In this document: piece after piece, positions 6,681-19,005 of the stretch
How positions within the stretch are numbered: the first letter of the stretch is position 1
How the letters are laid out: each line of letters opens with the position of its first letter
Assembly (NCBI RefSeq): GCF_947581915.1
Contig: NZ_CANPWG010000052.1
Location: 1 to 64,000 of the forward strand
Length of the DNA stretch: 64,000 bases
Direction of reading: 5' to 3'
From: Candidatus Palauibacter scopulicola
GTDB taxonomy: Bacteria; Gemmatimonadota; Gemmatimonadetes; Palauibacterales; Palauibacteraceae
Program-made: the position numbers and the translations under genes
The notes under the pieces: model-generated
Told to the model about the DNA's origin: nothing
The model's database searches: none
Seen by the model: only the letters and a program-made list of their open reading frames with translations

Positions 6681-7514
6681 ATGCATTCACGATGGCGCAG
6701 CTTCGCCGCCGCCACGACGCTCACCCTCGCCGCCGTCCTCACCTCGTGCGGCCCGTCCCCCGCCATCCGGACCATCCCGCTCGAGGCGCCGCTCCTGCTG
6801 CGGATGGCGCCGCCCGAGGGACAGGTATCGCGCTACGCCTACTCCATGGAAACGAGCGTGGAGAGTCCGATGATGCCCTCGACCGGCGGCCCGCTCGTCA
6901 CCATGGCCTGGCAACAGGTTCAGACGGTCCTGAGCGCGGACGACGACGTTGTTCGGGTCCGCGGGGCGGTCGATTCGGCCAGCACCACGATGGGGCTGCC
7001 GATGCCGGGGATGGACGACATGCTGCCCGATCTCTCCGGCGTGTCCTTCACCGTGGACATGGACCCGCGCGGCGGCGTCCTGCAGGTCGTGGAGAGCGAA
7101 GGAGTCCCGGAAGGTGCCGGGGTGAGCGTCGAGAGCATGTTGCAGGGAGCCGGCCATTCCGTGCTGCCCGAAGCGGAGGTCAGCCCGGGGGATTCCTGGA
7201 TGGTCGAGACGCCGATCGAGATGCCGATGGGGACCGGCGGAACGATGTCGCTGGACATGGAATTCACCTACACGTTCGTGAGTCTCGCCGATGGCCTCGC
7301 CACCCTCTCGTTCGAGGGGCCGATGGACATGGACATGGACATGCAGGGCATGGCGATGAGCGGCTCCGGGACCCTGTCCGGAACGCTGGTCGTCGACCTG
7401 GTCGAGGGCCGGTATGTCAGCCAGACGAGCCGTCAGAACATGGAAATGGGCGTGGCCGGGACATCGATGACCGTGAATACGACAACCACCCTCGAACTGA
7501 TGCCGGACCGCTGA
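6681..7514 (+). CDS. predicted exported lipoprotein of unknown function (paralogue A)
   Basis: The 277-residue protein starts with a lipoprotein signal whose lipobox is LTSC (Cys23). Export and lipid anchoring are therefore likely. The rest is a beta-rich, Met-, Gly- and Asp-rich domain with the phrases EGQVSRY, EAEVSPGDSW and a closing TTTTLELMP. The same phrases recur in the next gene, so the two are tandem paralogues. A run of Met-Asp repeats (DMDMDMQGM) lies near residue 215. The ATG has an ideal AGGAGG 6 bases upstream. I do not recognise a function; it resembles uncharacterised exported proteins known only as domains of unknown function. Confidence 0.8.
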   Translation: MHSRWRSFAAATTLTLAAVLTSCGPSPAIRTIPLEAPLLLRMAPPEGQVSRYAYSMETSVESPMMPSTGGPLVTMAWQQVQTVLSADDDVVRVRGAVDSASTTMGLPMPGMDDMLPDLSGVSFTVDMDPRGGVLQVVESEGVPEGAGVSVESMLQGAGHSVLPEAEVSPGDSWMVETPIEMPMGTGGTMSLDMEFTYTFVSLADGLATLSFEGPMDMDMDMQGMAMSGSGTLSGTLVVDLVEGRYVSQTSRQNMEMGVAGTSMTVNTTTTLELMPDR

Positions 7515-7567
7515 CGCGGACCCGGCCACCGGAAGTCCCGAACCCCCGAACCTCAATGGAGGACCAA

Positions 7568-8338
7568 GTGAACCAAAGGAGAATCAGCGCCTTGATGCGG
7601 ACTGCGGCCGTGGCGGCCCTCGCGGTGGCGTATGCGACCCCTCTCGACGGGCAGACGACCACGCTCCGCGTGATGCCGGCCGAAGGACAGGTTTCGCGGT
7701 ATCTCATCGGCTCCGAGACGTCGATGGCGGGGACGACCATGTCGACGTCAAAGCGCTACCAGACCGAGACGGTGGTCAGCGCGGCCGGTGACGTCGTTGA
7801 GATCCGCACGGTCGTCGACTCCACCACCATGACGGAGGCCATGCCCGGAGCGGGCGGACCCGATCTGTCGGGCATGAGCTTCACGTTCGCAATGGACCCG
7901 CGCGCGCGCCCCACCGGGTTGACCGACGCCGGGACGCTCACGCCGGACGCGGAAGCCGCCGTCTCCGCGACGCTGGCGACCAGCTTCTTCGAGCTACCCG
8001 AAGGCGAAGTGAGTCCGGGCGACTCCTGGTCGGGACAGACGTCCGCCGATATCCCGGCCGGCATGGGCGCCACGATGACGATGGAAACGGACATCGCCTA
8101 CACGCTCGTGGGTGTCGACGGGGATCTTGCGGAGATATCGCTCGAAGGGACCGTCACGATGTCGGCCAACACCGGCGGGATGTCGATTGAGGGCTCCGGC
8201 ACCGTCACCGGAACCGCCATCTTCGACACGGGCAGCAGCCGCCTCCGGGGCCACGACAGCGTGATTAACCTGAACTTGACGATGGGCGGGATGCCGGCGT
8301 CGATGACGACGAGCACGACGCTGGAACTGATTCCGTAG
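7568..8338 (+). CDS. predicted exported protein of unknown function (paralogue B)
   Basis: The 256-residue protein has a classical signal peptide (residues ~1-25, ending near PLDGQ) and no lipobox Cys, unlike its upstream paralogue. The shared signatures are EGQVSRYLIGS, EGEVSPGDSW and the C-terminal STTLELIP. The GTG start is chosen over an ATG 12 bases upstream because GGAGGACCAA precedes it exactly as AGGAGGACCAC precedes paralogue A. Genes A and B are 53 bases apart and probably co-transcribed. The stop lies only 2 bases from the stop of the convergent CocE gene. Function unknown. Confidence 0.78.
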   Translation: MNQRRISALMRTAAVAALAVAYATPLDGQTTTLRVMPAEGQVSRYLIGSETSMAGTTMSTSKRYQTETVVSAAGDVVEIRTVVDSTTMTEAMPGAGGPDLSGMSFTFAMDPRARPTGLTDAGTLTPDAEAAVSATLATSFFELPEGEVSPGDSWSGQTSADIPAGMGATMTMETDIAYTLVGVDGDLAEISLEGTVTMSANTGGMSIEGSGTVTGTAIFDTGSSRLRGHDSVINLNLTMGGMPASMTTSTTLELIP

Positions 8339-8340
8339 GA

Positions 8341-10257
8341 TCAGCCGCCTTTCGTTGGCAGGACAATGCGGGACGCGTGGACCGCGTTGCGCTGTACCGT
8401 CCACTCCGGGACGCTCCCGTCGCGGGGATAGCGGAGGAAGGTGTCCGCGTCCGCGCCGGCGAGGGCGACCCGGATGCGGTGGCCGGCCCGGAACAGCACC
8501 GACGTCGCCCACAGGTCGAAGCTCAGTTCGGCGACCTCCCCCGGCACGAGCGGGAGGGCGTCGGCGCGCGTCTCGCTCCGGTGCGGCCCGTACTTTCGGT
8601 ACAGCGGCGGGGCGTCCGTGACCGCGCGCATGACGCCGCGGAGCTGTCCCTCGGTGATGTATCGCACGGTGCCGTCCGGAGCGACGTCCTCCAGGTAGAC
8701 GATGAAGGCGCCGTCCGTCTCGGTGGACGCCAAGTGCAGCGTGACGACGGGGTGGCCGGTGACTTCGGTATCGACCACTAGCGGAGCGCTCGTGTAGATC
8801 AGCAGCTTCTCATCCTCCGCCCGGCGGTCGCCGTACACGACATCGCCGCCCCCGCCGTTCGTGTACCAGCGGTTCCGGGTCCCCGTCGTGGCGGTGAAAT
8901 CGACGATATGGGAGTCCTCCCCTGCCTCCGGGGCGGGAGCTTCCGTCGACAGCGTGCCCCCCTCGCCGAAGTACCACGTCACGTCGTCGAAGCCCGCCGG
9001 CGGCCACGTCTCGGTACGCGTCCAGCGGTCGGCGCCCAGCGTGTAGTAATGGATCTCCGTCGGCGTCGCCCCCGATCCATCCTCCTTGAGGTGGGCGTCG
9101 AAGAACGCGACGAGTTCCTCGAACCGGGCGTCGGCGTCGGGTTGTACGGGCGTGTCGTCCGCCTTGAAGGGGTCCGTGTCGTTGCGCGCCCCGTGGTCCC
9201 ATGGGCCGATAAACACCTGCTGCGGGTTCGTGATCGTGTTGTAGCGGCCCAGCGTGCCGTTCACGGTCGCCGCGTCCTGCCAGCCGACGCGGATGAACAT
9301 GGCCACGCCGGACTCCTCGATCTGCGGGAGGTGGCCGGAGGGGCTGCGGCGGTGCCCGACATTCGTCTCGCCGTACGGGCCGAACGGGTCGTCGCGGAAC
9401 TCGTACTCGAGCGCCGCCTCGAACGGCACCGTATTGGCCTGGTGCTCCGCCACCGCGGCGGCGAGCAGCGATCCGTCGCCGTCGGCGTCGACCGGTTTCA
9501 CGCCGGTGATCCGGCTCTGCACCTCGTCGCAGGCGGCCCCCATCGCATTGGAAAGCCCGCAGATGTCGTTCAGGTCCTGCATGCGCGTCCGGTTCGACCA
9601 GTCCTCGAGAAAGCCGACCGTGAGCACGCCTCCAGGGAAGATGAGGTGGCCGAAGTTGTCGAAGTCGTTGAAGAGGGGCGCGACCGCCTTCACAGCGGAT
9701 CTGCGGTTGACCGCGAGCATCTCGGCCGTGTTCCCGGCGTAGGAGACCCCGTAAGCGCCCACGCGCCCGTTCGACCAGGGTTGATCCGCGATCCAGTCCG
9801 CAACCTCCCCGTAGTCCGTCACCTCATCCTCGGCGAGCTCGAAGCGGCGGATCCCGAACGAGGCCCCACTTCCCCGCCCGTCCACGAGAACGAGCGCGTA
9901 CCCGGCCCGGTTCCAGCGCTCCGCCTCGGCGAAGTTCGACGTCTCCTCGAGGGGAATGCCGACTTCGCCCCGGGCGCGCCAGTAACGGGTCGCCCGCATC
10001 ATGGCCGGGAGCTGGTCCCCGGACTGGATGCCATCCGGCAGCCACACGTCGACGGCGATGCGGACGCCGTCGCGCATGGGGATGTGAAGCGCCTGGTTGC
10101 GCGTGACCGCACTCACGGGGACGGCGGCCCGCGCGTCATCGCCTGCCGCGGACCTGTCGGCCGTGGCGGCGTCCCCGCAGGCCGCCGCGGCGACCGCCGC
10201 CAATCCCGCGAGACGCCGCGCGGCCGCGCCGACGCCGCGCTGGCGCCGCCGGTTCAC
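8341..10257 (-). CDS. CocE/NonD-family hydrolase, predicted lipoprotein (X-Pro dipeptidyl-peptidase-like)
   Basis: The 638-residue protein is an alpha/beta-hydrolase of the CocE/X-Pro aminopeptidase (S15) type, acting on ester or peptide bonds. After a lipoprotein-like signal (Cys27) comes the hydrolase fold. The predicted triad is Ser172 (GVSYAG), Asp328 (GWQD) and His355 (GPWDHG), matching the cocaine-esterase pattern. A C-terminal jelly-roll (X-Pro C) domain follows, from about residue 380. The GTG start overlaps the stop of the upstream ggt-like gene (GTGA), so the two are translationally coupled and probably handle one substrate class in the periplasm or at the membrane. Ester versus peptide specificity cannot be told. 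Confidence 0.85.
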   Translation of the reverse strand: MNRRRQRGVGAAARRLAGLAAVAAAACGDAATADRSAAGDDARAAVPVSAVTRNQALHIPMRDGVRIAVDVWLPDGIQSGDQLPAMMRATRYWRARGEVGIPLEETSNFAEAERWNRAGYALVLVDGRGSGASFGIRRFELAEDEVTDYGEVADWIADQPWSNGRVGAYGVSYAGNTAEMLAVNRRSAVKAVAPLFNDFDNFGHLIFPGGVLTVGFLEDWSNRTRMQDLNDICGLSNAMGAACDEVQSRITGVKPVDADGDGSLLAAAVAEHQANTVPFEAALEYEFRDDPFGPYGETNVGHRRSPSGHLPQIEESGVAMFIRVGWQDAATVNGTLGRYNTITNPQQVFIGPWDHGARNDTDPFKADDTPVQPDADARFEELVAFFDAHLKEDGSGATPTEIHYYTLGADRWTRTETWPPAGFDDVTWYFGEGGTLSTEAPAPEAGEDSHIVDFTATTGTRNRWYTNGGGGDVVYGDRRAEDEKLLIYTSAPLVVDTEVTGHPVVTLHLASTETDGAFIVYLEDVAPDGTVRYITEGQLRGVMRAVTDAPPLYRKYGPHRSETRADALPLVPGEVAELSFDLWATSVLFRAGHRIRVALAGADADTFLRYPRDGSVPEWTVQRNAVHASRIVLPTKGG

Positions 10258-11993
10258 CAGGCGATCGCGTGGCCGTCGCGGCGCGGATCCGACCCGCCGG
10301 CGAGCGCACCCGTCTCCGCATCCCGGTACACGCCCTGTACACCGCCGAGGTTGCCGGGCTCGACGAGATTGTGACCGCGGTCCGCCAGTTCCCCGTACAC
10401 CTCCGGCGGGAAGCCCGCCTCCAGGTAGGTGACGGAGTCCTCGGGAATCGGCGTCAGCCCGCCACCCCGGTTGAGGCACATGCGGGGCGATGCGATCGCC
10501 AGCTGCATGTCCATCCCGCCGGCCGTCAGCTTCGTGATCACCTGCCCCACCGTCTGCGGGATTGTGTAGCCGCCGGCGGCGCCGACCGCCGCGACGAGAT
10601 TCCCGTCCTTCATGACGACGCACGGCGTCATCACGCCCTTCGCCTTCTGGCCACCCGCGATGTAGTTGACGTGCCCTTCTTCCAGGGAGAAGCCGAACAT
10701 GTGGCCGTTGTTGAGGAAGATCCCCGTGTCGCCCGCGATCACGCCGCTGCCGTAGAGGGCGACGAGAGACTGGGTGAAGGCGACGGCGTTCCCCCAGCGG
10801 TCGGCGGAGGAGAGGCTCGTCGTCCCGAAGAACGGGAGCGGGGCGCCCGCGAAGGAGGCGATGCGCGCGGGATCGATCGTCGCCCGCTGCTCGTCCGCGT
10901 ATTCCTTCGAGATGAGCATGTCGACCGGGATCTCCGCGTCCTCGTTCCCGGTGTTGTACCGCTCGTCGTCGATGAGGGCGAGCCGGTTCGCCTCGAGCCA
11001 CAGGTGGGCGAACTCGGAGCTGTAGAGATCCATGTTCGCGAGGTCGAAGCCGTCCATGATGTTGAGCGCCTGGAACATCGACATCCCGCACGACCCCGGC
11101 GGCATGGCGTACAGGTCGTGCCCCTGGAAGGTCGTCGTGATGGGCTCCCTCCACGCGACCTCGTAGCCCTCGAGGTCGGCCTTCGTCATGTGGCCGCCGT
11201 TCTCGGCGAGAAAAGCGACGATGCGATCTCCGATCTCCCCCATGTAGAAATCGTCTGCGCCTTCGCGCGCAAGTCGGCGCATGCTCGCCGCCAGTTCGGG
11301 CTGCCGGATGATCTCGCCCATCCGCGGCGGACGGCCGGTGGGGAACATGATGCGGGTGCTGGACGGGAATCTCCCGAGCTTGTCCGCGCTCCCGGTGGTG
11401 TGGAGTTCGTCGAACTTCGAGATAACGAAGCCGTCCTCGGCGAGCTGGATCGCGGGCTCGAACACGTCACCGAGGCTCATCGTCCCGTAGCGCTCGAGCA
11501 CGGCGGCCCAGCCCTTGAAGGCGCCGGGGACGATCGGCGCGCGGTAGCCCATCTCGACATCATCCGGCGTGATCGTGTTCGCCGAGGAGGCCGCGGGCGC
11601 CCGGCCGAGCGCGTCGAGTCCGACGACCCGGTTCTCCTCCGCCAGGTAGATGAGCATGAAGCCGCCGAAGCCGCCGAGCCCGGACATGTAGGGCTCGGAG
11701 ACGTTGAGCGTGGCGGAGGCGGCGACGATGGCGTCGATCGCGTTGCCGCCCTGCATCATGATCGTCGTGCCGGCGAGCGACGCGTAGTAGTCGGCGGCGG
11801 CCGTCACGCCGCGGCGGCCCCACACGGTCCCGTGCGCGGGGCCGAGCAGGCCGGGGACGTTCGAGTCGCCGGCGGGGCCCCATTGTCCGATCCCGTCCGG
11901 GGGGGCGGCGGCCGTCTCGGGGGCGCGGCAGGCGATCAGACCGGATCCGGCGGCGGCCGCGGCGGAGGTGGCGAGGAAGTCTCGGCGCTTCAT
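10254..11993 (-). CDS. Tat-exported gamma-glutamyltransferase-fold Ntn hydrolase (copy 1)
   Basis: The 579-residue protein is a GGT-family Ntn hydrolase. MKRRDFLATS is a twin-arginine signal with a possible lipobox Cys22, so it is exported folded. The autocleavage and nucleophile site is Thr391 in GTTSLS, the oxyanion glycines are GAAGG (471-475), and the C-terminus carries GGSDPRRDGHA. Residues that bind the gamma-glutamyl group in E. coli GGT are replaced: the Arg114 position is Leu129, Asn411 is Val, Gln430 is Gly, Asp433 is Phe, and Ser462-Ser463 is Gly-Val. I infer a different acyl substrate. It has its own promoter and is coupled to the CocE gene. Confidence 0.9.
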   Translation of the reverse strand: MKRRDFLATSAAAAAGSGLIACRAPETAAAPPDGIGQWGPAGDSNVPGLLGPAHGTVWGRRGVTAAADYYASLAGTTIMMQGGNAIDAIVAASATLNVSEPYMSGLGGFGGFMLIYLAEENRVVGLDALGRAPAASSANTITPDDVEMGYRAPIVPGAFKGWAAVLERYGTMSLGDVFEPAIQLAEDGFVISKFDELHTTGSADKLGRFPSSTRIMFPTGRPPRMGEIIRQPELAASMRRLAREGADDFYMGEIGDRIVAFLAENGGHMTKADLEGYEVAWREPITTTFQGHDLYAMPPGSCGMSMFQALNIMDGFDLANMDLYSSEFAHLWLEANRLALIDDERYNTGNEDAEIPVDMLISKEYADEQRATIDPARIASFAGAPLPFFGTTSLSSADRWGNAVAFTQSLVALYGSGVIAGDTGIFLNNGHMFGFSLEEGHVNYIAGGQKAKGVMTPCVVMKDGNLVAAVGAAGGYTIPQTVGQVITKLTAGGMDMQLAIASPRMCLNRGGGLTPIPEDSVTYLEAGFPPEVYGELADRGHNLVEPGNLGGVQGVYRDAETGALAGGSDPRRDGHAIAW

Positions 11994-12029
11994 GACTCGA
12001 CTCCTGGGCAGAGGGGTTCGCGGACCCTG

Positions 12030-12059
12030 ATCCTAGACCAAGAGTTGTCCCCCGCTCAA
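12030..12059 (-). promoter_or_regulatory. sigma70-like promoter of ggt-like copy 1
   Basis: TTGAGC, 18 bases, TAGGAT, followed by a 37-base interval to the ATG that contains AGGAG. The same -35, spacing and -10 recur before both other ggt-like genes although the spacer sequences differ, which supports a functional promoter. Confidence 0.75.
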
Positions 12060-12061
12060 GA

Positions 12062-12092
12062 CCCCGGCCGGGGCGTTCACCGGTGGCCGGGG
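12062..12092 (-). terminator. hairpin downstream of ggt-like copy 2
   Basis: Perfect 8-base arms (ccccggcc at 12062-12069, ggccgggg at 12085-12092) enclose a 15-base loop. They lie between the stop of copy 2 and the -35 box of copy 1. The position suits transcription termination and insulation of the next promoter. No T-run follows, so a Rho-independent mechanism is doubtful. Confidence 0.4.
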
Positions 12093-12132
12093 TGCGAGCC
12101 GGGCTCTCCGTGCCGCGCCTGAAGCGTGACCG

Positions 12133-13875
12133 TCACCAGGCGATGGCGTGACCGTCCCGGCGCGGGTCGGATCCGCCGGCCAGGGCGCCGGTCTCGGCGT
12201 CGCGGTACACACCCTGCACACCGCCGGGGTTCCCGGGCTCGGCCAGGTAGTGGCCGCGATCCTCGAGTTCGTCGTACACCTCGGGCGGAAAACCCGCCTC
12301 GAGGTACGTGACCGAGTCCTCGGGGATCGGCGTACGCCCGCCACCCCGGTTCAGGCACATGCGCGGCGACGCGATCGCGAGCTGCATGTCCATCCCGCCG
12401 ACGGTGAGCTTCGTGATCACCTGGCCGACGGTCTGCGGGATAGTGTATCCGCCGGCGGCTCCGACAGCCGCGACGAGGTTCCCATCCTTCATCACCACGC
12501 ACGGCGTCATGACGCCCTTCGCCTTCTGGCCGCCCTCGAGGTGATTCACGTGCCCTTCCTCGAGCACGAAGCCGAAGGTGTGGCCGTTGTTGAGGAAGAT
12601 GCCCGTGTCGCCCGCGATCACGCCGCTCCCGTAGCCGCTCACGAGCGACTGCGTGAAGGCGACCGCGTTCCCCCAGCGGTCCGCGGAGGAGAGGCTCGTC
12701 GTCCCGAAGAACGGGAGCGGGGCGCCCGAGAAGGAGGCGATGCGCGCGGGGTCGATCTTCGCCCGCTGCTCGTCCGCGTATTCCTTCGAGATGATCATGT
12801 CGACGGGGATCTCCACGTCCTCCTTCCCCGTGTTGTACCGGTCGTCGTCAATGAGGGCGAGGCGGTATGCCTCGAGCCACAGGTGCGCGAACTCGGAACC
12901 GTACAGGTCCATGTTCGCGAGATCGAAGCCGTCCATGATGTTGAGCGCCTGGAACATCGACATCCCGCACGACCCCGGCGGCATCGCGTACAGGTCATGC
13001 CCCTGGAAGTTCGTCGTGATCGGCTCCTTCCAAGTGACGTCGTACGACTCCAGATCGCCCATCGTCATGTGACCGCCGTTCTCGGCGAGGAAGGAGACGA
13101 CGCGCTCCCCGATCTCTCCCTTGTAGAAGTCGTCCGCCCCTTCCCGGGCGAGGCGTCGCATGCTGGCGGCGAGATCCGGCTGCCTGATGATCTCGCCCAT
13201 GCGCGGCGGACGGCCGTTCGGGAACATCACGCGGGTCGTCGAGGGGAACCGGCCCAGCTTCTCGGCCGCGGCGCCGCCCGTGTGGATCTCGTCGAAGCGC
13301 GACACGACGAAACCGTCCTCGGCGAGCCGGATGGCGGGCTCGAAGACGTCGCCCAGACTCATCGTCCCGTAGCGCTCCAGGACGGCAGCCCATCCCTTGA
13401 AGGCGCCAGGCACGATGGGCGCCTTGTAGCCCGCCTCGAAATCGTCGAGCGTCATCGTCTCGGGCGACGAGGCGGCCGGCGACTTGCCGAGCGCGTCGAG
13501 GCCGACCACGCGGTTCTCCTCGGCCAGGTAGATGAGCATGAAGCCGCCGAAACCTCCGATCCCGGACATGTAGGGTTCGGAGACGTTCAGCATGGCGGAG
13601 GCGGCCACGATCGCGTCCACCGCGTTCCCGCCCTGCATCATGATCGTGGTGCCGGCGAGCGAGGCGTAGTAGTCGGCGGCGGCCGTCACGCCGCGTGCTC
13701 CCCACACGGCCCGGTGCGCGGGTCCGAGCAGGCCCGGGACGTTCGAGTCACCGGCGGGGCCCCATTGTCCGCTCGCGGCGGTTGCGGCGCCCGCGGTATC
13801 GGGAGGCCGACAACCGATGAGGCTGGATCCGGCGGCGGCAGCGGCGGAGGTGGCCAGGAAATCTCGGCGCTTCAT
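12133..13875 (-). CDS. Tat-exported gamma-glutamyltransferase-fold Ntn hydrolase (copy 2)
   Basis: The 580-residue paralogue is very similar to copy 1 across its whole length. It has the same twin-arginine leader (MKRRDFLATS), the nucleophile motif GTTSLS, the SGYGSGVIAGDTG stretch, GAAGGYTIPQ, and the C-terminal GGSDPRRDGHA. It carries the same loss of gamma-glutamyl contacts (Val, Gly and Phe at the Asn411, Gln430 and Asp433 positions, and Gly-Val for Ser-Ser). The loop GGAAAEKLG near residue 200 is one residue longer than in copy 1. It is preceded by its own copy of the shared promoter. A tandem duplication is the simplest origin. Substrate unknown. Confidence 0.9.
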   Translation of the reverse strand: MKRRDFLATSAAAAAGSSLIGCRPPDTAGAATAASGQWGPAGDSNVPGLLGPAHRAVWGARGVTAAADYYASLAGTTIMMQGGNAVDAIVAASAMLNVSEPYMSGIGGFGGFMLIYLAEENRVVGLDALGKSPAASSPETMTLDDFEAGYKAPIVPGAFKGWAAVLERYGTMSLGDVFEPAIRLAEDGFVVSRFDEIHTGGAAAEKLGRFPSTTRVMFPNGRPPRMGEIIRQPDLAASMRRLAREGADDFYKGEIGERVVSFLAENGGHMTMGDLESYDVTWKEPITTNFQGHDLYAMPPGSCGMSMFQALNIMDGFDLANMDLYGSEFAHLWLEAYRLALIDDDRYNTGKEDVEIPVDMIISKEYADEQRAKIDPARIASFSGAPLPFFGTTSLSSADRWGNAVAFTQSLVSGYGSGVIAGDTGIFLNNGHTFGFVLEEGHVNHLEGGQKAKGVMTPCVVMKDGNLVAAVGAAGGYTIPQTVGQVITKLTVGGMDMQLAIASPRMCLNRGGGRTPIPEDSVTYLEAGFPPEVYDELEDRGHYLAEPGNPGGVQGVYRDAETGALAGGSDPRRDGHAIAW

Positions 13876-13911
13876 GGGACGGCTCCTGGGCAGGGGGGAT
13901 CGCAGACTTTG

Positions 13912-13941
13912 ATCCTAGGCTGCGGGTCGCTCGCCGCTCAA
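13912..13941 (-). promoter_or_regulatory. sigma70-like promoter of ggt-like copy 2
   Basis: TTGAGC, 18 bases, TAGGAT, 36 bases from the ATG. The stretch just after the -10 (TAGGATCAAAGTCTGCGATCC region) is nearly identical before copy 3, so the conserved block includes the transcription start area. Confidence 0.75.
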
Positions 13942-14041
13942 GACCCGGCGGGCGGCGACGGGAGCCCCGAAATACCCGCGGAACTCCCGCCTATTGGCTA
14001 TCGTAGACAGCAGCCTCCTCCTGGAGAAAGGGCCATCACGC

Positions 14042-15571
14042 GTGCCTGATTCAGTCACAGCTGCCCCCCACCGCCCCGAGAGTGCGGTCGTCTCCGCCCT
14101 CCGTGGGCTCGAGGGACGCGCCACCCTGGGCGATGTCGTCTCCGCCACCGGACTTCCGGAGCACGAGGCCGAGGTCGCCCTGAGGTCCCTCCTGGAGACG
14201 CACCGCGGCCACCTCGGGGTCTCCGATTCGGGCGACCTCCTCTATCGGTTCGATCCCCATCTCATCGAGCGGGACGCGGAACCGTTCCGGGCGCGCTTCC
14301 GCCGCGTCGCCTGGTCGGCCTTCAAGGTCGGCTTCAAGATCTGGACGGCGGTCATGCTGGTCGTCTACTTCGTCGTCTTCGTCGTGCTCCTGATCGCGCT
14401 GCTGACCGCCAACCGCGACGGCCGCGGCTCCGGCGGGCGCCGGGGCTTCGGTTTGGGGGACTTCTTCATCCTCCACTGGCTTCTCGGGGGGCGCGGGTGG
14501 GACCGGAGGGGCCTCTACTACGGCGACCGCCACGCCAGGCGGCTCCCGAAGGATGCCCGGCCACCCTTCTACAAGAAGGTCTTCGCCTTCATCTTCGGCC
14601 CCGAGGAGCCCAGGCCGACGCAGCTCCAGAAGGATCGTACGGTCGTCCAGTTGATCCGGGCGCGGAAGGGCATCCTGACGGCGTCGGAGTTGATCGAGCA
14701 CACCGGCCTGTCGATCGACGACGCCGTCGAAGAGATGGGACGCCTCACCGGCGCCTACGGAGGCGACCCACGGGTGTCGGACGCGGGGGAGGTGGTGTAC
14801 GCCTTCCCGGAACTGATGAGAAGCGCCCACGGGAAGATCCGGGCGCGCGAGCCCAAGCCGGCATGGATGCGGCTGGAGTACCCGAAGAAACTCACGGGCA
14901 ACAGTCCGGGGGCCAACGTCGGCATCGGCGCCATGAACGGCTTCAACCTGGCGATGGCGAGCGTGTTCGGGCTGCCCTCTTCGTTCGATCCGGTCATGTT
15001 CTACGGACTCGGCGTGATACCCTTCACGTTCAGCGGCCTCTTCTTTGCGATTCCCATCGTCCGCTCGCTGGCGCTGAGAGGGGAGAACCGCGCGCGCATG
15101 CGGCGCAACGTGCGGCGCCTGCTCGTGGGCCTGGTCTACTCCCTCAGCGTGGGAACCGTCCGGTGGGTCGCGGCTGCCGACGCGATCCGCCACGTGACGG
15201 GCGCGCTCAAGGGCCAGCAGGTGCCGCCGAAGATGATCCTGGCGGAGCTGCAGCGTCTGGCGGCCGAGTTCGGTGCCGAAGTGGAGGCGGCGGAGGAAGG
15301 GTTCACCTATCGTTTCCCCGCGATACGCGCGAGCTTCGTCGAGGCGGAGTTCATGCGGCGCCGGCTGAAGCTGCAGGATCAGCGTCTCGGTCCGATCGTC
15401 TACTCGACCTCCGACACCGCCGCGGAGGCCTCGCGACGAGACATGGACGCCTTCGACCGCGAACTCGAAGGCGCCCGACTCGACCTCTCCCGCTACCTCC
15501 CCTCCCCCACCCGGGTGGGCTTCGAGGAAGATTTCGAGGTGGTCATGGACCCGGACCCGCCGGGGACCTAG
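14042..15571 (+). CDS. membrane protein with three winged-helix-like repeats, function unknown
   Basis: The 509-residue protein alternates soluble modules and membrane segments. Module 1 (~13-74) ends VSDSGDLLYRF, module 2 (~198-258) ends VSDAGEVVYAF, and module 3 (~378-429) ends EEGFTYRF. Each begins with a helical stretch like a winged-helix domain, so I infer a threefold internal repeat. A strong transmembrane helix lies at ~101-124 and a helical hairpin at ~292-341. A Gly/Arg-rich loop follows the first helix. The GTG has AAGGG about 9 bases upstream; an in-frame TTG at 13994 seems less likely. The gene is on the opposite strand between ggt-like copies 2 and 3. I do not recognise a family. 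Confidence 0.8.
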   Translation: MPDSVTAAPHRPESAVVSALRGLEGRATLGDVVSATGLPEHEAEVALRSLLETHRGHLGVSDSGDLLYRFDPHLIERDAEPFRARFRRVAWSAFKVGFKIWTAVMLVVYFVVFVVLLIALLTANRDGRGSGGRRGFGLGDFFILHWLLGGRGWDRRGLYYGDRHARRLPKDARPPFYKKVFAFIFGPEEPRPTQLQKDRTVVQLIRARKGILTASELIEHTGLSIDDAVEEMGRLTGAYGGDPRVSDAGEVVYAFPELMRSAHGKIRAREPKPAWMRLEYPKKLTGNSPGANVGIGAMNGFNLAMASVFGLPSSFDPVMFYGLGVIPFTFSGLFFAIPIVRSLALRGENRARMRRNVRRLLVGLVYSLSVGTVRWVAAADAIRHVTGALKGQQVPPKMILAELQRLAAEFGAEVEAAEEGFTYRFPAIRASFVEAEFMRRRLKLQDQRLGPIVYSTSDTAAEASRRDMDAFDRELEGARLDLSRYLPSPTRVGFEEDFEVVMDPDPPGT

Positions 15572-15610
15572 CTCCCCTCACAGCGGCCCTGGACACGGGC
15601 GTCCACTACT

Positions 15611-17350
15611 CTACCAGGCGATGGCGTGACCATCGCGTCTCGGGTCCGACCCGCCGGAGAGGGCGCCCGTCCCGGCGTCGCGATGCACCGCCTGCACTCC
15701 GCCGAGGTTGCCGGGCTCCGCGAGGTAGTGGCCACGGTCCGCCAGTTGCTCATAGACCTCGGGCGGGAACCCGGCCTCCAGATACGTGACGGAGTCCTCC
15801 GGGATCGGCGTCCGACCCCCGCCCCGGTTGACGCACATGCGCGGCGACGCGATGGCGAGCTGCATGTCCATGCCCGCCACCGCGAGCTTCGTGATGACCT
15901 GGCCGACCGTCTGCGGGATCGTGTAGCCGCCCTGTGCCCCGACCGCCGCGAACAGGTCGCCGTCCCTCATCATGATGCACGGTGTCATCACGCCCTTCGC
16001 CCGTTTGCCGCCCTCGAGGTGGTTCACGTGACCCTCCTCGAGCACGAAACCGAACATGTGACCGTTGTTGAGGAAGATCCCCGTGTCGCCGGCGATCACG
16101 CCGCTCCCGTACGCGTTCACAAGCGACTGCGTGAAGGCGACCGCGTTCCCCCACCGGTCGACGGTGGAGAGACTTGTCGTCCCGTAGAACGGAAGCGGGG
16201 CCCCGGAGAAGGAGGCGACGCGCAGGGGATCGATCTTCGCGCGCTGCTCATCCGCATACTCCCGGGAGATGATCATGTCCACGGGGATGTCCGCGTCTTC
16301 CTTACCCGTGTTGTACCGGTCGTCGTCGGCGAGGGCGAGCTTCATCGCCTCGAGCCACAGGTGGACGAACTCGGAGCCGTACAGATCCATGTTCGCGAGA
16401 TCGAACCCGTCCATGATGTTCAGCGCCTGGAACATCGACATCCCGCAGGAGCCCGGCGGCATGGCGTGCAGATCGTATCCCTGGAAGGTCGTCCGGATCG
16501 GCTCCCGCCACTCGACTTCGTAGCCTTCGAGGTCGGCCTTCGTCAGGTGGCCGCCGTTCTCGGCCAGGAAGGCGACGATGCGGTCGGCGAGTTCGCCCTT
16601 GTAGAGGTCGTCCGCACCCGCGCGGGCGAGGTGGCGCATGCTCGCTGCGAGCTCGGGCTGCTTGATGACCTCGCCCATGCGGGGAGGGCGTCCGTTGGGG
16701 AAGAACACGCGCGTCGTCGAAGGGTAGCGGCTCAGTTTGTCGGCGCTCGACTGCGTGTAGCGCTCGTCGAACTTCGAGAACACGAAGCCATCCTCGGCGA
16801 GCCGGATCGCGGGCTCGAACAGGTCGCCGAGGCTCATCGTGCCGTAGCGCTCCAGCGCGGCGGCCCATCCCTTGAAGGCCCCGGGCACGATCGGCGCCTT
16901 GTAGCCCATGGCGAAGTCGTCCAGGGTCATCGTCTCCGGCGAGGAGGCGGCGGGCGAGCGGCCGAGCGCGTCGAGCCCCACGACGCGGTTCTCCTCGGCC
17001 AGGTAGATGAGCATGTAGCCGCCGAAGCCCCCGAGCCCGGACATGTAGGGGTCCGACACGTTCAGCGTGGCGCACGCGGCGACCATCGCGTCGATGGCGT
17101 TCCCCCCCTGCATCATGGTCTGCGTCCCGGCGAGCGACGCGTAGTAGTCGGAACAGGCCGTCACGCCCGTGCGGCCCCACACGGTGCCGTGCGCGGGCCC
17201 CGCCAGGCCGGGCACATGCGCGTAGTCGCCGGAGCCCCACTGCCCGGAGGTGAGGGGCGCGGCGGCGGAAGTCTCGGGGGGACGGCAGGCGACGAGGCCG
17301 GATCCGGCGGCGGCCGCGGCGGAGGTGGCGAGGAAGTCTCGGCGTTTCAT
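15611..17350 (-). CDS. Tat-exported gamma-glutamyltransferase-fold Ntn hydrolase (copy 3)
   Basis: The 579-residue third paralogue is more diverged than copies 1 and 2. Nucleophile region GTTSLSTVDRWGNAVA, oxyanion region GAQGGYTIPQ, C-terminal GGSDPRRDGHA, and the same twin-arginine leader. The gamma-glutamyl-binding positions are again Val, Gly, Phe and Gly-Val, so the altered pocket is conserved in all three copies rather than decayed. It lies convergent to the membrane-protein gene (39 bases between stops). Its promoter ends inside the short gap behind the DUF3006 gene. Confidence 0.9.
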   Translation of the reverse strand: MKRRDFLATSAAAAAGSGLVACRPPETSAAAPLTSGQWGSGDYAHVPGLAGPAHGTVWGRTGVTACSDYYASLAGTQTMMQGGNAIDAMVAACATLNVSDPYMSGLGGFGGYMLIYLAEENRVVGLDALGRSPAASSPETMTLDDFAMGYKAPIVPGAFKGWAAALERYGTMSLGDLFEPAIRLAEDGFVFSKFDERYTQSSADKLSRYPSTTRVFFPNGRPPRMGEVIKQPELAASMRHLARAGADDLYKGELADRIVAFLAENGGHLTKADLEGYEVEWREPIRTTFQGYDLHAMPPGSCGMSMFQALNIMDGFDLANMDLYGSEFVHLWLEAMKLALADDDRYNTGKEDADIPVDMIISREYADEQRAKIDPLRVASFSGAPLPFYGTTSLSTVDRWGNAVAFTQSLVNAYGSGVIAGDTGIFLNNGHMFGFVLEEGHVNHLEGGKRAKGVMTPCIMMRDGDLFAAVGAQGGYTIPQTVGQVITKLAVAGMDMQLAIASPRMCVNRGGGRTPIPEDSVTYLEAGFPPEVYEQLADRGHYLAEPGNLGGVQAVHRDAGTGALSGGSDPRRDGHAIAW

Positions 17351-17419: not shown

Positions 17420-17701
17420 CTAGAGCTCGACGTCGCCGCCGGGATCGCGGCCCCTCAGGCGCCGGAGCACGTTTTCCGCCTCCCGCAGTCGAGCCTGGCG
17501 CGCCTCTTCGTCCAGCACGGCCGCGCCCCAGTCAGGTCGTCCCTCCGCCTCCGGTACGCGCAGCACGGCGCCTTCGCGGCTTCCGGCAGGAAGCGTCTCG
17601 ATGGGCACGTCTTCGGCGCGCTCTTCCGCGTCTCGGATGAGCACGGCGATGCACCCCTCGACGCGGTCGACGACCCAGAAGTGCTCCGATTTCCGGCTCA
17701 A
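17420..17701 (-). CDS. DUF3006 domain protein
   Basis: The 93-residue protein opens with FWVVDRVEGCIAVLIRD, typical of the DUF3006 fold, and ends with an acidic/basic helix (DEEARQARLREAENVLRRL). DUF3006 genes are commonly found beside secreted ComEC-like metallo-beta-lactamases, as here. The only in-frame start I can place is a TTG overlapping the stop of the upstream MBL gene (TTGA). This supports coupling and a shared role that remains unknown. Confidence 0.8.
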   Translation of the reverse strand: MSRKSEHFWVVDRVEGCIAVLIRDAEERAEDVPIETLPAGSREGAVLRVPEAEGRPDWGAAVLDEEARQARLREAENVLRRLRGRDPGGDVEL

Positions 17702-19005
17702 TAGTCGAACACGATGACGACCGCCCCGGTGTCGTCGTAGAGGGTCGCGGTGTCGCCGTTGTTGTTCCACACGGCCTGCCGCCGATCCATGTAATAGCGG
17801 GTGCCGTCGGCGCGCCCGGAACCGGTGTGGACCACGATCTGTCCGCCGGCCCCGAGTAGCGCGTCCGCCGGGAATCGGAAGCAGTGATTGGCCCCGTCGC
17901 ACAGCAACCAGCCGCCGATCGGCCGGTCGTCGGGCGTCAGGTTCCGAATCACGGCGTACTCGCCGTTCGGGTTCGTGTGATCGTTGCCGGGCGCATCGGC
18001 GTGTACCCAGAGTCGGATCCGCGCCTCACCCGGCGTGCCGAGGACGCCGGTCGGCCCGGGAAGCGCCACGGGCGCGTCGCGCGGCTCGTCTCCCGTTCCG
18101 CGCAACGCGACCTCTCCGCCGAACGAGACTTCGTAGTCGCCGCTCTCGCGCCCCTGCACGGAGACGTGGCCGTGCCGATCCGTGCGGAACACGGCGGCCC
18201 CCGACGCCTCGTAGGCCCGGAGGGCGGCGGGCCCCGGATGGCCGTAGGGGTTGTCGCGGCCCACCGAGATGACGACGACCCGGGGGCGGGCGGCGTTCAG
18301 AAACTCCCGTGTGAAGCCGTTGTCGGCGCCGTGGTGCGGGGCCTTGAGCAGCGCCACCTCGGGGACGGCCCCCCGGTTCATCAGATGGGTCAGTTGCCGT
18401 ATCTCCGAGTCGCCGCTCAGGAAGGCGCGGAACTCGCCGAACCGCACGAGCAGGGTGACGGAGCGGTCGTTGAGCCCCGTCGCCCCCCGCGGGAGCAGCG
18501 GCAGCACGTCGATCTCGACCTCGCCGAGCGTGAGCGTCCGCGGCGAGGCCTCCAGGTAGGTGATCTCCGGACGCGCGTCGAGGGCGGCGAGCAGCCGCCG
18601 GTAGGTCCGTGTCGTGTGCGGCTCCCCGTTGTCCATGTAGAAACGCACCGGGAACGCCGCGATGACGCCGGCCATGCCGCCGATGTGATCCGCGTGGGGG
18701 TGCGTGGCGACGAGCAGATCGATCTCGCTCACGCCGAACTGCCGCAGTAGAGGGACGATGTCGTCGCGCCCCGCGTCCACGAGCGCGGTCCTCCCACCCG
18801 GCGCCTGGATGAGCACGGCATCGGCCTGTCCCACATCGAGGAACGTGATGCGCAGAACGGAATCGGGATCGACGATCGGGGCGGACGGGACGCCCGCGAC
18901 GACAGGCGTGGCGAGGAGGGTGGCAAGGGAGGCGACCGCAAGCGCCCGGCGAAGCCGCTCCCGACCCCGCCCTGCCGACGGCTCGTGTGTGGTCCCGAAG
19001 CACAT
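17698..19005 (-). CDS. exported ComEC-like metallo-beta-lactamase-fold hydrolase with C-terminal lamin-tail domain
   Basis: The 435-residue protein has a signal peptide (~1-42), an MBL-fold domain of the ComEC/Rec2-like branch (~50-300) and a lamin-tail (LTD) domain (~330-435; NPNGEYAVIRN, AVWNNNGDTATLYDD). Metal ligands are visible in THPHADH (102-107), SGDSE (~199) and APHHGADNG (~224). LTD domains often bind DNA or cell-wall targets. A secreted nuclease or phosphodiesterase role, or one in DNA uptake, is plausible but unproven. It has no ComEC transmembrane channel, so it is not ComEC itself. It overlaps DUF3006 downstream and is divergent from the Asp-box gene. Confidence 0.85.
   Translation of the reverse strand: MCFGTTHEPSAGRGRERLRRALAVASLATLLATPVVAGVPSAPIVDPDSVLRITFLDVGQADAVLIQAPGGRTALVDAGRDDIVPLLRQFGVSEIDLLVATHPHADHIGGMAGVIAAFPVRFYMDNGEPHTTRTYRRLLAALDARPEITYLEASPRTLTLGEVEIDVLPLLPRGATGLNDRSVTLLVRFGEFRAFLSGDSEIRQLTHLMNRGAVPEVALLKAPHHGADNGFTREFLNAARPRVVVISVGRDNPYGHPGPAALRAYEASGAAVFRTDRHGHVSVQGRESGDYEVSFGGEVALRGTGDEPRDAPVALPGPTGVLGTPGEARIRLWVHADAPGNDHTNPNGEYAVIRNLTPDDRPIGGWLLCDGANHCFRFPADALLGAGGQIVVHTGSGRADGTRYYMDRRQAVWNNNGDTATLYDDTGAVVIVFDY

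Follow-up and report, generated by a model that had tools for sequence, protein, structure and literature searches.

In a 64,000-nucleotide stretch of the genome of Candidatus Palauibacter scopulicola (positions 1 to 64,000 of contig NZ_CANPWG010000052.1, hereafter the window), three genes encode proteins with the fold of gamma-glutamyltransferase (GGT) that keep the catalytic core of the family and have lost its canonical donor pocket. We consider it probable that these copies are lineage-specific, extracytoplasmic N-terminal nucleophile (Ntn) amidohydrolases with a re-made donor pocket, acting on an amide other than a gamma-glutamyl one, and their pocket residues make it likely that they are not glutathione-degrading GGTs. 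What is new is a deep, fully supported branch of the family with its own pocket, a Tat-type (twin-arginine translocation) export signal and a gene overlapping that of a lipoprotein S15/CocE-type hydrolase; the literature searched held no description of such a pocket variant or of the partner enzyme that goes with it.

Catalytic core, export signal and donor pocket

Candidatus Palauibacter is a Gemmatimonadota group reported to occur in sponges and corals as well as in marine sediments (PMC10469786). The source genome of 3.6 Mb contains 11 PF01019 genes, three of them in the window, where all are intact open reading frames on the minus strand with one full-length PF01019 domain each (E < 1e-120, so that chance is not an issue). 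Pairwise identity among the copies is 82.2-88.1%.

10254..11993, minus strand: copy 1, GGT-fold Ntn hydrolase, 579 residues; putative Tat signal, lipobox LIAC; pocket L129/S409/V411/H431/G434/G453-V454
12133..13875, minus strand: copy 2, same type, 580 residues; lipobox LIGC; grouped in the tree with the single copy of L049
15611..17350, minus strand: copy 3, same type, 579 residues; lipobox LVAC; first of the three to diverge; query for the structure model
16178..16180, minus strand: codon of the copy 3 nucleophile Thr391, predicted start of the small subunit (17350 - 3*390)

A preliminary description of this DNA had stated that the three paralogues retain the Thr391 nucleophile, the oxyanion glycines and a GSDPR motif, and alignment bore this out. 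Thr391, Thr392, the oxyanion Gly-Gly and the C-terminal GSDPR are all retained; Thr391 aligns with the first small-chain residue of solved GGTs, and the Gly390-Thr391 sequence is compatible with autoproteolysis before the Thr. The nucleophile, the oxyanion glycines and their flanking residues are invariant wherever members of the clade formed by the copies and their relatives cover these sites. Structure prediction, suggested earlier as a check, was performed with AlphaFold2 on residues 50-579 of copy 3, with the signal trimmed and distant homologues from IMG/VR contigs added. The resulting model (predicted local distance difference test, pLDDT, 86.6; predicted template modelling score, pTM, 0.90) has the GGT fold, and its strand at model residues 342-349, which are residues 391-398 of copy 3, starts at the nucleophile; an earlier model from 21 close homologues (pLDDT 42.8) was discarded. 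The best Foldseek matches, with template modelling (TM) scores (query) of 0.83-0.90, were 2e0w (E. coli GGT precursor), 2NLZ, 4y23 (B. licheniformis), 2i3o (T. acidophilum) and 6j3a (LmbA2991). Also among the structural matches was 5hft, which is HpxW, an oxamate amidohydrolase with the GGT fold and a non-glutamyl amide substrate. A structure search against viral proteins gave no useful match. By their full-length domain, fold, Thr nucleophile and oxyanion Gly-Gly, the copies belong to the GGT fold family PF01019 (MEROPS T03).

The N-terminus of each copy is MKRRDFLATSAAAAAGS, followed by the lipobox LIAC, LIGC or LVAC; the lipobox is present in the Gemmatimonadota copies in addition to the Tat-like Arg-Arg motif. 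Together these motifs suggest Tat-exported lipoproteins, in agreement with the earlier proposal of an activity outside the cytoplasm.

Donor-pocket residues were compared with those of E. coli GGT (L009) in alignments of up to 69 sequences. At the position of the alpha-carboxylate-binding R114 the copies have Leu129 (Met in some clade members); T409 is replaced by Ser and N411 by Val411 in all copies, H393 by Ser393, and the PLSSM motif containing S462-S463 by AKGVM (Gly453-Val454), while the lid loop is missing. The substitutions first described at R114, N411 and the two serines are thus confirmed. The loss of Gln430 and of the alpha-amino-binding Asp433 also stands, but their equivalents are His431 and Gly434, and not the Gly430 and Phe433 of the original gap-free alignment, which was off after residue 429 because it ignored a clade-specific one-residue insertion, Gly430 (NN-G-H). 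A further clade-specific insertion of one residue is Phe109. R114, D433 and S462 are lost together in every clade member, and S409, V411, G430, H431, G434, K452, G453 and V454 were invariant in 40 of the 40 clade sequences examined, a signature common to members from Gemmatimonadota and Acidobacteria. Cys302, Ser393, Trp400 and Lys452 are invariant in the clade and different in both other large groups described below; residue 131, which is Arg in copy 3, varies.

The argument that changes identical in three copies must have been selected was overstated, since duplicates share residues by descent and their identity is therefore weak evidence for selection. Better evidence of constraint is provided by the ratio of nonsynonymous to synonymous substitution rates (dN/dS), which was 0.03-0.06 between orthologues and 0.13-0.19 between copies, together with the invariance of the pocket signature, including in Acidobacteria members that are 54-64% identical. 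The catalytic machinery is intact and purifying selection is strong. A higher conservation of the pocket than of the background was unsupported: in a comparison with an Acidobacteria homologue (L060, 57% identical), seven of nine donor-pocket positions were kept, with no excess conservation (hypergeometric P = 0.18).

Position in PF01019, duplication and spread

The clade formed its own branch in a 69-sequence tree, with support of 100/100, apart from both the canonical branch and the branch of 26 sequences that holds the B. halodurans protein 2NLZ (100/98). The view that the copies make up a distinct sub-family is supported by this tree. For the canonical group, the 2NLZ-type group and the present one, the tree requires one change each; it does not settle how the groups are related. 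Outside the clade, 24 of 59 sampled sequences were canonical, with R114 and S462 in 24/24 and D433 in 23/24 (one Asn), and R114 was absent in 35, of which 26 were the 2NLZ-holding group, although the sample is mostly from Gemmatimonadota and these proportions are not representative of the whole of PF01019. A residue test on Arg114, Asp433 and Ser462 separates the groups.

The 11 PF01019 genes of the genome comprise two canonical genes (L001 and L002, with R114, D433 and S462), one of 2NLZ type (L003), the three copies and five with other pockets. Gamma-glutamyl use thus does not require copies 1-3. Since only two of the 11 genes are canonical, tallies of 'GGT' genes are probably an overestimate of the glutathione degradation carried out by sponge-associated bacteria and other uncultured ones. 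Against TIGR00066 ('gamma-glutamyltransferase'; cut-off 357.85), the three copies reach 374.8, 370.5 and 384.5 bits, so that an automatic pipeline would give them this name; the cut-off is also passed by the 2NLZ-type proteins L067 and L003 and by the Acidobacteria homologue L060. The predicted mis-annotation is borne out as far as the name is concerned, and is a real error only if the function differs.

Two of the other paralogues in the same genome deserve mention. L336 (G000:C67:119224-120552) apparently lacks the Thr nucleophile (aligned GHSDDVV), lies on a very long branch and may be a GGT fold that is dead or has been re-purposed, and L334 (G000:C58:35346-37031) carries ITPSGGW and RATLTP, like LmbA2991. 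GGT-family genes were also seen on IMG/VR contigs classed as viral (L087, L089 and L090, the last 51% identical to E. coli GGT), and may be host sequence or auxiliary genes; three scans of viral contigs yielded no relatives.

Across the Palauibacter genomes, copies 1, 2 and 3 fall into separate clades, one for each copy, indicating that the duplications predate those species splits. Among 60 relatives, homologues more than 70% identical occurred only in the genus of the window, the next best being 34-41% identical. A GTDB-wide scan and further searches recovered the clade in seven of 23 genomes of g17, a Gemmatimonadota genus of another family, and in six of 250 genomes sampled from one order of Acidobacteria. 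The g17 sequences nest inside the Palauibacter diversity (99/95), which fits horizontal transfer. Apparent frameshifts split L048:4470-6207 (copy 3 in a Palauibacter genome) and L058:5725-7451 (the only copy in a g17 genome), due either to assembly error or to recent loss.

The S15 partner and other neighbouring genes

8341..10257, minus strand: S15/CocE-type serine hydrolase with lipoprotein-like N-terminus (PF02129 and PF08530; TIGR00976 CocE/NonD)
13994..15571, plus strand: membrane protein without an assigned family, between copies 2 and 3

Copy 1 ends in TGGTGA, and the S15 gene starts at the GTG inside it, giving a 4-nt overlap (GTGA) with the TGA stop; in g17, the stop of the GGT-like gene overlaps the ATG of the S15 gene by one base. 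The pairing was present in every examined Gemmatimonadota locus with enough downstream DNA, except for a second copy, L056. In a tree of the S15 proteins, g17 fell next to L055 and L057, two outliers among the Palauibacter sequences, which is compatible with joint transfer and does not settle its direction. Taken with the GGT-like tree, this suggests that the pair moved as a unit between two Gemmatimonadota lineages. The coupled S15 gene makes a concrete two-enzyme unit, and in the literature searched there was no report of a GGT-S15 gene pair or of GGT in Palauibacter.

Other hydrolases adjoin members of the clade: two Acidobacteria genomes encode, directly upstream and in the same direction, an esterase/gluconolactonase-like protein whose N-terminus is signal-like, and 7/7 g17 loci have an upstream PF00144 beta-lactamase-like gene that is not present there in Palauibacter. 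These families are often extracytoplasmic, and would fit a scavenging or detoxifying role while naming no substrate. TauE/SafE genes occur near clade members at four g17 loci and in Acidobacteria (L366/L367), and not in the window; examples of this permease are L050:6961-7896 (g17) and L366:7455-8255 (Acidobacteria). A link to sulfonates through TauE/SafE was dropped, as the evidence was too thin. There was no biosynthetic cluster around the copies, and none of the scanned neighbours belonged to the purine-degradation families.

The membrane protein between copies 2 and 3 is kept within the genus, was not found next to the corresponding genes of the second lineage, and is probably outside the system. 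Upstream of copy 3, the minus strand at 17701-18957 encodes a protein in which a lamin-tail domain comes after a metallo-beta-lactamase fold; the gene is syntenic across Palauibacter. Adjoining the S15 gene on the plus strand, at 6681-7514 and about 7547-8338, are tandem related lipoprotein-like genes, kept across Palauibacter, the first of which is DUF6263.

Proposed activity and comparison with known systems

We propose that the copies would be exported by a Tat-type route, with lipid anchoring at the lipobox Cys in the Gemmatimonadota, and that each precursor would cleave itself before Thr391, giving a large and a small chain as in GGT, in view of the retained nucleophile and fold. Thr391 would then attack an amide carbonyl whose acyl part carries no alpha-amino-acid head group of the kind bound by Arg and Asp. 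Within a pocket lined by Leu/Met129, Val411, His431, Gly434 and Gly453-Val454, this acyl part would probably be small and uncharged or weakly polar, and the acyl-enzyme would be hydrolysed. In Gemmatimonadota, the conserved overlapping gene pair suggests that the translationally coupled S15/CocE-type lipoprotein may handle the product or a related substrate. The likely role would be extracytoplasmic scavenging or detoxification of amides that are acylated or peptide-like. A bolder version, which we regard as speculative and rather unlikely, is that the two enzymes form a surface system that degrades a particular amide available in the environment of marine hosts, often sponges; this system would have been triplicated in Palauibacter and handed on whole to the other Gemmatimonadota lineage.

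Several observations weigh against a non-gamma-glutamyl amidohydrolase. Loss of the canonical pocket is ordinary within PF01019, and replacement of R114 by Ser, of N411 by Tyr and of S462-S463 has already been described in B. halodurans/extremophile and archaeal clades (PMC4568574, PMC8062742). Homologues with altered pockets from Geobacillus (Ser85 at R114, His414-Thr415 at the Ser-Ser position), Thermus, Deinococcus and Picrophilus are still gamma-glutamyl hydrolases (PMC8062742). Lys452 and His431 are polar candidates for a rebuilt pocket. Export and lipidation are predicted from motifs. No S15 gene was found beside the Acidobacteria members or L056, and the partner is therefore not essential to the enzyme. 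The suggestion of another acyl or amide substrate thus remains likely from the pocket, weakened by the ordinary nature of pocket loss and by the active altered homologues; the general inference of the preliminary description is plausible and less novel than presented.

The strongest alternative, possible although we do not think it likely, is that the copies are slow gamma-glutamyl hydrolases incapable of transpeptidation, resembling the GGTs of extremophiles and archaea in which R114 and Ser-Ser are missing. Transpeptidation is absent in the Geobacillus, Thermus, Deinococcus and Picrophilus homologues, the first three of which have low specific activity, and in B. licheniformis GGT the R109S mutant keeps 85% of activity (PMC8062742); the copies are lidless, as are those homologues. 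However, the clade lies outside the 2NLZ-type branch and has Leu or Met at R114, and the corresponding Leu substitution left no detectable activity in E. coli GGT (R114L) and 5% in the B. licheniformis enzyme (R109L) (PMC8062742). In addition, D433, N411 and both serines are lost, and the genome already has two canonical GGT genes. An attack directed at an oxalyl-type carbonyl instead of a plain acyl amide, resulting in C-C cleavage as in LmbA and Ant6 or in oxamate hydrolysis as in HpxW, is improbable: LmbA and Ant6 are GGT homologues reported to cleave a C-C bond and to be without gamma-glutamyl activity (PMC5519988), and LmbA2991 (6j3a) and HpxW (5hft) match the model, but the copies have no biosynthetic cluster around them and pocket residues unlike those of LmbA2991. 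Least probable of all is that the copies are catalytically dead or moonlighting surface lipoproteins, since the pocket change and the triplication of an apparently surface-anchored protein are set against invariant catalytic residues and very low dN/dS.

A re-pocketed amidohydrolase can be placed among known relatives as follows. Canonical E. coli GGT (MEROPS T03) shares with the copies the fold (TM about 0.84 to 2e0w), Thr391, the oxyanion Gly-Gly and the GSDPR end at about 31-33% identity, whereas the copies lack R114, N411, Q430, D433, S462-S463, H393 and the lid loop and have two one-residue insertions; the pocket residues of EC 2.3.2.2 (Arg114, Asp433 and PLSSM with Ser462-Ser463) are absent. 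Class IV cephalosporin acylase is GGT-like with D433 altered, as in the copies, but is defined by Asn at this position (PMC8062742), where the copies have Gly434. HpxW (5HFT) shares the fold and is a weaker structural and sequence match. LmbA, Ant6 and LmbA2991, from the lincomycin and anthramycin pathways, are likewise GGT homologues with a Thr nucleophile (6j3a, TM 0.88), but catalyse C-C cleavage in biosynthetic pathways and have the pocket motif ATPSGGW; the copies have neither such motifs nor a biosynthetic cluster, and L334 of the same genome is closer to LmbA2991. The best sequence match in the PDB is the B. halodurans 'cephalosporin acylase' 2NLZ, and proteins of this extremophile type, like the copies, lack R114, D433 and Ser-Ser, have Ser at 409 and are lidless. 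Their pocket, however, reads S/T-Y/F-R-H-T, with Gln at the position of Cys302, while that of the clade reads L/M-V-H-G-G-V.

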